Source: Geoalkalibacter sp. (GTDB taxonomy: Bacteria; Desulfobacterota; Desulfuromonadia; Desulfuromonadales; Geoalkalibacteraceae). From it: a DNA stretch of 34,478 nt. Positions 10,451 to 10,636 of the stretch are shown here, one piece after another. Under the pieces are notes generated by a model. It was not told the origin of the DNA, did no database searches, and was given only the letters and a program-made list of their open reading frames with translations. A program made the position numbers and the translations under genes. How positions within the stretch are numbered: the stretch's first letter is position 1; the number at the start of each line of letters is the position of its first letter. The DNA is taken from contig NZ_JAUVWH010000016.1 in assembly GCF_030604225.1 (NCBI RefSeq), positions 1 to 34,478 on the forward strand. Reading direction: 5' to 3'.

Positions 10451-10499
10451 AAAAAGGCGCCCGCACTGCTTTGTTCAAAAAAGCAGCAGGGGCGCCTTT
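10451..10499 (-). terminator. Conditional intrinsic terminator in the glnB leader
   Basis: On the minus strand AAAGGCGCCC (10499-10490) pairs perfectly with GGGCGCCTTT (10462-10453). Above it CTGCTTT pairs with AAAGCAG around a 7-nt loop, and the T-tract runs to 10451. It lies between the sigma-54 promoter and glnB, so it must be overcome for the operon to be expressed. Confidence 0.85.
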
Positions 10500-10538
10500 G
10501 CCCTGACTTTTTCCCAAACCCGCCGACGCCGTTGTCAG
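10487..10538 (-). promoter_or_regulatory. ANTAR-type dual hexaloop antitermination element
   Basis: Hairpin 1 (10538-10523) is CUGAC-AACGGC-GUCGG. Hairpin 2 (10503-10490) is GGGC-AAAGGC-GCCC, extendable with a bulge. Both loops are six bases with A at position 1 and G at position 4, the known hallmark of RNAs bound by ANTAR-domain regulators. Hairpin 2 uses the 5' arm of the glnB-leader terminator, so the two structures exclude each other. This is the described ANTAR antitermination mechanism, and Geobacter nitrogen genes are controlled this way by GnfK/GnfR. No ANTAR gene is in the window. Confidence 0.75.
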
Positions 10539-10620
10539 CCGTGAGGTGATAAAAAAAATTTTTGCCGGTGAGGATGGCTGACTGGAATCTATGCGCCTGC
10601 CCTCACCTGCCTAAGGGTTT

Positions 10621-10636
10621 AGCACAGGCTGTACCA
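10621..10636 (-). promoter_or_regulatory. Sigma-54 promoter of the glnB-amtB operon
   Basis: The minus strand reads TGGTACAGCCTGTGCT, with GG and GC correctly spaced; it differs from consensus at C4 (T), G7 (A) and the first T of TTGC. Transcription would start near 10610, giving a leader of about 200 nt before glnB. Confidence 0.65.

Follow-up and report, generated by a model that had tools for sequence, protein, structure and literature searches.

The glnB-amtB locus of this window (the whole stretch of DNA that was analysed, 34,478 nt) raises the question of how genes for a PII protein and an ammonium transporter could be expressed across a strong intrinsic terminator that separates them from their sigma-54-type promoter. 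Based on comparative sequence analyses, we consider it highly likely that the glnB-amtB leader, with its kinase-regulator circuit, is an ANTAR-dependent transcription antitermination switch, in which a nitrogen-responsive protein very probably binds the leader and stops premature termination.

All leader elements lie on the minus strand, as does glnB, and the leader extends from a predicted 5' end at about 10611 to 10408, with glnB starting at 10407 (Table 1). An earlier note on this DNA had described a sigma-54 promoter followed by two hairpins whose six-base loops both carry A at position 1 (A1) and G at position 4 (G4), the second sharing bases 10490-10499 with the 5' arm of a strong terminator; these elements and the 10-nt overlap were recovered at those coordinates. 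Its further claim that hairpin 2 and the terminator cannot coexist holds as well, because the P2 loop and 3' arm double as the terminator 5' arm. The leader thus shows what is expected of an ANTAR target: two stem-loops of at least 3 bp with hexanucleotide loops (6 bp in P1 and a short perfect stem of only 4 bp in P2), A1 and G4 in both loops, and a P2 that is mutually exclusive with an intrinsic terminator. When both strands of the window were scanned for this strict pattern (two A1/G4 hexaloop hairpins with a terminator overlapping P2), the glnB leader was the single match, compared with 1 match in 60 simulated order-1 Markov windows (0.017 per window). Folding of the growing RNA predicted that P1 stays formed (P 0.96), that P2 is mostly formed (P about 0.8) up to a 3' end at approximately 10463, and that the terminator displaces P2 a few bases later, which would leave an interval for protein binding.

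Table 1. Coordinates of predicted features at the glnB-amtB locus, in window positions
Feature	Position	Strand	Details
Sensor kinase (GAF-PAS-HisKA-HATPase), GnfK candidate	12313-10739	-	Pfam domains; directly upstream of leader
NtrC-type enhancer-like palindrome	10705-10689	-	TGCCATTGGAATAGGCG; one mismatch to TGC-N11-GCA; 68 nt upstream of sigma-54 box
Sigma-54-type promoter	10637-10621	-	TTGGTACAGCCTGTGCT; TGG-N10-GC, 10/13 consensus positions
Hairpin P1	10539-10522	-	GCUGAC[AACGGC]GUCGGC; 6 bp; hexaloop 10533-10528; -7.6 kcal/mol
Hairpin P2 (antiterminator)	10503-10490	-	GGGC[AAAGGC]GCCC; hexaloop 10499-10494; about -7 kcal/mol
Intrinsic terminator	10499-10451	-	Long U-tailed hairpin; -29.2 kcal/mol; 5' arm formed by P2 loop and P2 3' arm
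Ribosome-binding site of glnB	10418-10423	-	AAGGAG, read from sequence
glnB (PII)	10407-10069	-	PF00543
Ammonium transporter, amtB type	10008-8686	-	PF00909; above TIGR03644 cut-off
Probable outer-membrane beta-barrel protein	8614-7856	-	Third operon gene; 72 nt after amtB

Other features of the leader were also observed. At its 5' end, GGUGAGG can pair with CCUCACC (10601-10610 with 10564-10573, minus strand), and GUCAGCC (10575-10581) can pair with the P1 5' arm GGCUGAC (10535-10541), a possible extra layer; inspection by eye revealed no conservation of either pairing in relatives. A match to the narK cis-regulatory family (E 1.2) was not taken as evidence, a sub-cut-off match of the terminator stem to a microRNA precursor was dismissed as a long-hairpin artefact, and a plus-strand fold of the region was set aside as irrelevant to a gene on the minus strand.

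The promoter is of the sigma-54 type by sequence, with TGG-N10-GC spacing, consensus flanks, and an activator-like site upstream, and rpoN is present in the genome. Its box reads TGGTAC, compared with TGGCAC in relatives, whose promoter is mostly TTGGCACG-N4-TGCT; among the other distinct leaders with the hairpins retained, almost all have 10 to 12 of the 13 sigma-54 positions, with TTGGCA(C/T). About 10 relatives have the upstream palindrome as an exact TGC-N11-GCA at the same 68-nt distance, and a further 3 have it displaced by at most 2 nt. For the PII gene of Geobacter sulfurreducens (GSU0939), which has a predicted sigma-54 promoter, primer extension detected no -24/-12 start in the conditions of that study (PMC2725144), and the sigma-54 step is therefore less certain and may be conditional.

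A model of the switch is proposed from these motifs. When nitrogen is limiting, transcription would start near 10611 through the action of sigma-54 polymerase and an NtrC-type activator. By default, the P1-P2 RNA would refold, with the P2 loop and 3' arm pairing downstream to form the terminator, and the RNA would end near 10451. The upstream GnfK-like kinase would phosphorylate the sole ANTAR response regulator of the genome (GnfR-like), and the activated, dimerised protein would bind both hexaloops through A1 and G4, hold P2, and block the terminator. Polymerase would then read into glnB, amtB, and the probable outer-membrane barrel gene in response to the nitrogen signal.

The protein components for such a circuit are encoded in the genome. 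The earlier note had made its reading depend on an ANTAR-domain regulator, and exactly one is present, a receiver-ANTAR response regulator on contig C17 (PF03861, E 9.3e-20) for which the closest solved sequences are the antiterminator Rv1626 and EutV. A homologue of the upstream kinase precedes glnB in 27/30 loci. In relatives, the kinase can adjoin the regulator gene itself (genome G012, locus L262, with 6 nt between them); the order in L259-L262 is ANTAR regulator, kinase, glnB, and in L109, L110, and L263 the regulator is placed after glnB and the barrel gene. This adjacency in relatives suggests that the kinase and leader of the window form one GnfK/GnfR-like circuit with the regulator, with the upstream kinase as the candidate cognate partner of the ANTAR regulator. 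Furthermore, since kinase, regulator, and target RNA lie in one gene cluster in relatives, the circuit is directly testable. Alternatively, antitermination may operate as proposed, with a different kinase, or a direct interaction with PII, delivering the signal. The location of the ANTAR gene on a different contig in this genome would fit such a route, but regulator and kinase are neighbours in relatives, directly before the leader, and we regard it as unlikely. Separately, an Rfam search of the window yielded only a 6S RNA gene (RF00013, 83.8 bits), at 12578-12759 (+), on the opposite strand from the kinase gene and a short way upstream of it.

The arrangement also agrees with the GnfK/GnfR nitrogen circuit of Geobacter, as the earlier note had suggested. 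Ueki and Lovley reportedly described GnfR in 2010 as an ANTAR RNA-binding regulator. In G. sulfurreducens, gnfK (GSU0941) lies near the PII gene (GSU0939), as the kinase does in the window, and the response regulator is encoded elsewhere (gnfR, GSU2822); the likeness is drawn from gene arrangement and description.

For each relative, the 400 nt preceding its best glnB were examined for conservation of the leader. Of 29 distinct leaders at the order level, 24 show the layout before amtB-linked glnB; those 24 had been chosen by loops with A first and, in P2, G at position 4. In each of the 24, the P2 loop or P2 3' arm shares bases with the terminator 5' arm; L013 and L032 have AACGGC as P2 loop and, correspondingly, GCCGTT as terminator tail. 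In the leader alignment, 95.4% of pair cells were paired, and the covariation score was 0.384 compared with 0.190 for shuffled alignments, a value reached in 0/500 shuffles. Changes on both sides occurred in 5 pairs (27 cells versus 6.8 shuffled), and covariation in both stems exceeded shuffles and slid controls. Because this first set had been selected on loop bases, leaders were retested with the terminator as sole anchor and no loop sequence demanded (n=26); A1 and G4 were present in 25/26 P2 loops, the exception being L023 (GATGGC), and in 23/26 P1 loops. Three leaders have no U-tailed terminator (L028, L030, and L031), and the genomes of L028 and L031 (G029 and G040) carry further glnB copies. 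Conserved and covarying hairpins, together with the single ANTAR response regulator of the genome, bear out the suggestion that the leader has the known signature of an ANTAR-controlled RNA. A simple terminator, attenuating or upstream, with hairpins arisen by chance and control left to the sigma-54 promoter alone, would account for a strong terminator between promoter and glnB and for the shortness of P2, but is very improbable given that the A1/G4 hexaloops are kept in many genera even in the test anchored on the terminator, that both stems show compensatory changes, that the leader is linked to kinase and ANTAR genes, and that a constitutive terminator before glnB would be pointless.

Leader and ANTAR gene also tend to be present or lost together. 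At the order level, a strong leader match was found in 47/72 ANTAR-bearing genomes compared with 2/16 without an ANTAR gene (p = 1.5e-4), and class-wide in 74/181 compared with 3/19 (p = 0.045), p-values that are indicative only, given the non-independence of species and the gaps in some assemblies. The remaining 25 of the 72 ANTAR-bearing genomes of the order have no strong leader match. Relatives without the ANTAR gene are mostly without the leader; in one of them (G007, locus L030) the locus has neither the kinase nor the U-tailed terminator. Two genomes at the order level (G021 and G090) have the leader and no detected ANTAR gene, perhaps as a result of draft-assembly gaps.

Sister family f4 departs from this pattern. 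Its loci (L106 in G008, L111 in G054, and L112 in G047) have the sigma-54 box, the glnB-amtB-barrel operon, and a retained ANTAR gene, and their glnB leaders are without ANTAR hairpins and without a U-tailed terminator. The 3' part of these leaders is conserved, with GGUGGCGGGU..CCCGCCACC and CCUCU..AGAGG hairpins beside the ribosome-binding site, and gave no Rfam match. Other RNA control therefore exists at the same operon in ANTAR-bearing relatives, which lends something to the idea that the window's leader is a small-molecule riboswitch or translational control element merely resembling an ANTAR target. That idea has little chance of being correct, since an Rfam search of the leader returned no family at cut-off, riboswitches included, the conserved core consists of two small hexaloop hairpins with no larger pocket, and the leader co-occurs with the ANTAR gene.

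In addition to the predicted glnB target, the ANTAR regulator probably has a second target in this genome, the nifHDK leader (L099 1890-2115, contig C189), where a sigma-54 box, TTGGCACGACCCCTGCTTT, is followed by two hexaloop hairpins, GGC[AACGAA]GCC and AGGC[AAGGGG]GCCT, each overlapping its own terminator. A P1 candidate before the first of these has the loop GAGGAU, which is without A1. The nifEN leader region of the same genome yielded no convincing ANTAR element. In a search of this genome, a covariance model built from glnB leaders matched only the glnB leader strongly; those of the weaker matches that were inspected lay within coding frames or were without a terminator, and were rejected. 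Pattern scanning of genome contigs gave mostly chance matches in GC-rich genomes and a few true ones in Desulfuromonadales. Other families of the class have ANTAR leaders with overlapping terminators in front of glnB, amt, nifH, and genes for outer-membrane proteins, and one locus (L245 in G142) carries three ANTAR leaders in about 8 kb, separately before an outer-membrane protein gene, amt, and glnB.

Pelobacter carbinolicus belongs to the same bacterial group as the source of the window. Dual-hairpin ANTAR RNAs were defined by Ramesh et al. in 2012 and predicted upstream of PII and ammonium-transporter genes (PMC3369931); the leader described here is therefore a well-supported new member of a class whose mechanism is already known in related bacteria. 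The targets of EutV (eut), NasR (nasF), and AmiR (amiE) likewise comprise two A1/G4 hexaloop hairpins with P2 overlapping an intrinsic terminator (PMC3369931), whereas here the genes and organism are different, a sigma-54 promoter lies upstream, and most loops read AANGNC. The predicted nitrogenase ANTAR regulon of P. carbinolicus, three units with ANTAR RNAs (PMC3369931, Fig. 9B), also places nitrogen genes under ANTAR RNAs; its units are nitrogenase units, in contrast to glnB-amtB and the barrel gene here, with nifHDK as probable second target. The leader is a clear-cut and conserved case of nitrogen control in two steps, combining a putative sigma-54 start with a predicted release at the RNA level.

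The third operon gene of the window probably encodes an outer-membrane barrel, judging from its own sequence, which matched no Pfam family, and from a weak match of a relative's homologue to PF09694 (Gcw_chp). Homologues adjoin glnB-amtB in 41/44 relatives that possess one, so that this third gene is a conserved operon member throughout the order, and the protein may be a new addition to the nitrogen regulon. We tentatively suggest, as a broader picture that may well need revision, that a GnfK/GnfR-type switch drives the glnB-amtB-barrel unit and brings an outer-membrane protein into the nitrogen-starvation response, and that one sister family replaced the ANTAR leader with a different structured leader while keeping promoter, operon, and ANTAR protein. 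In another relative (G107, locus L251), the barrel homologue has an ANTAR leader of its own.
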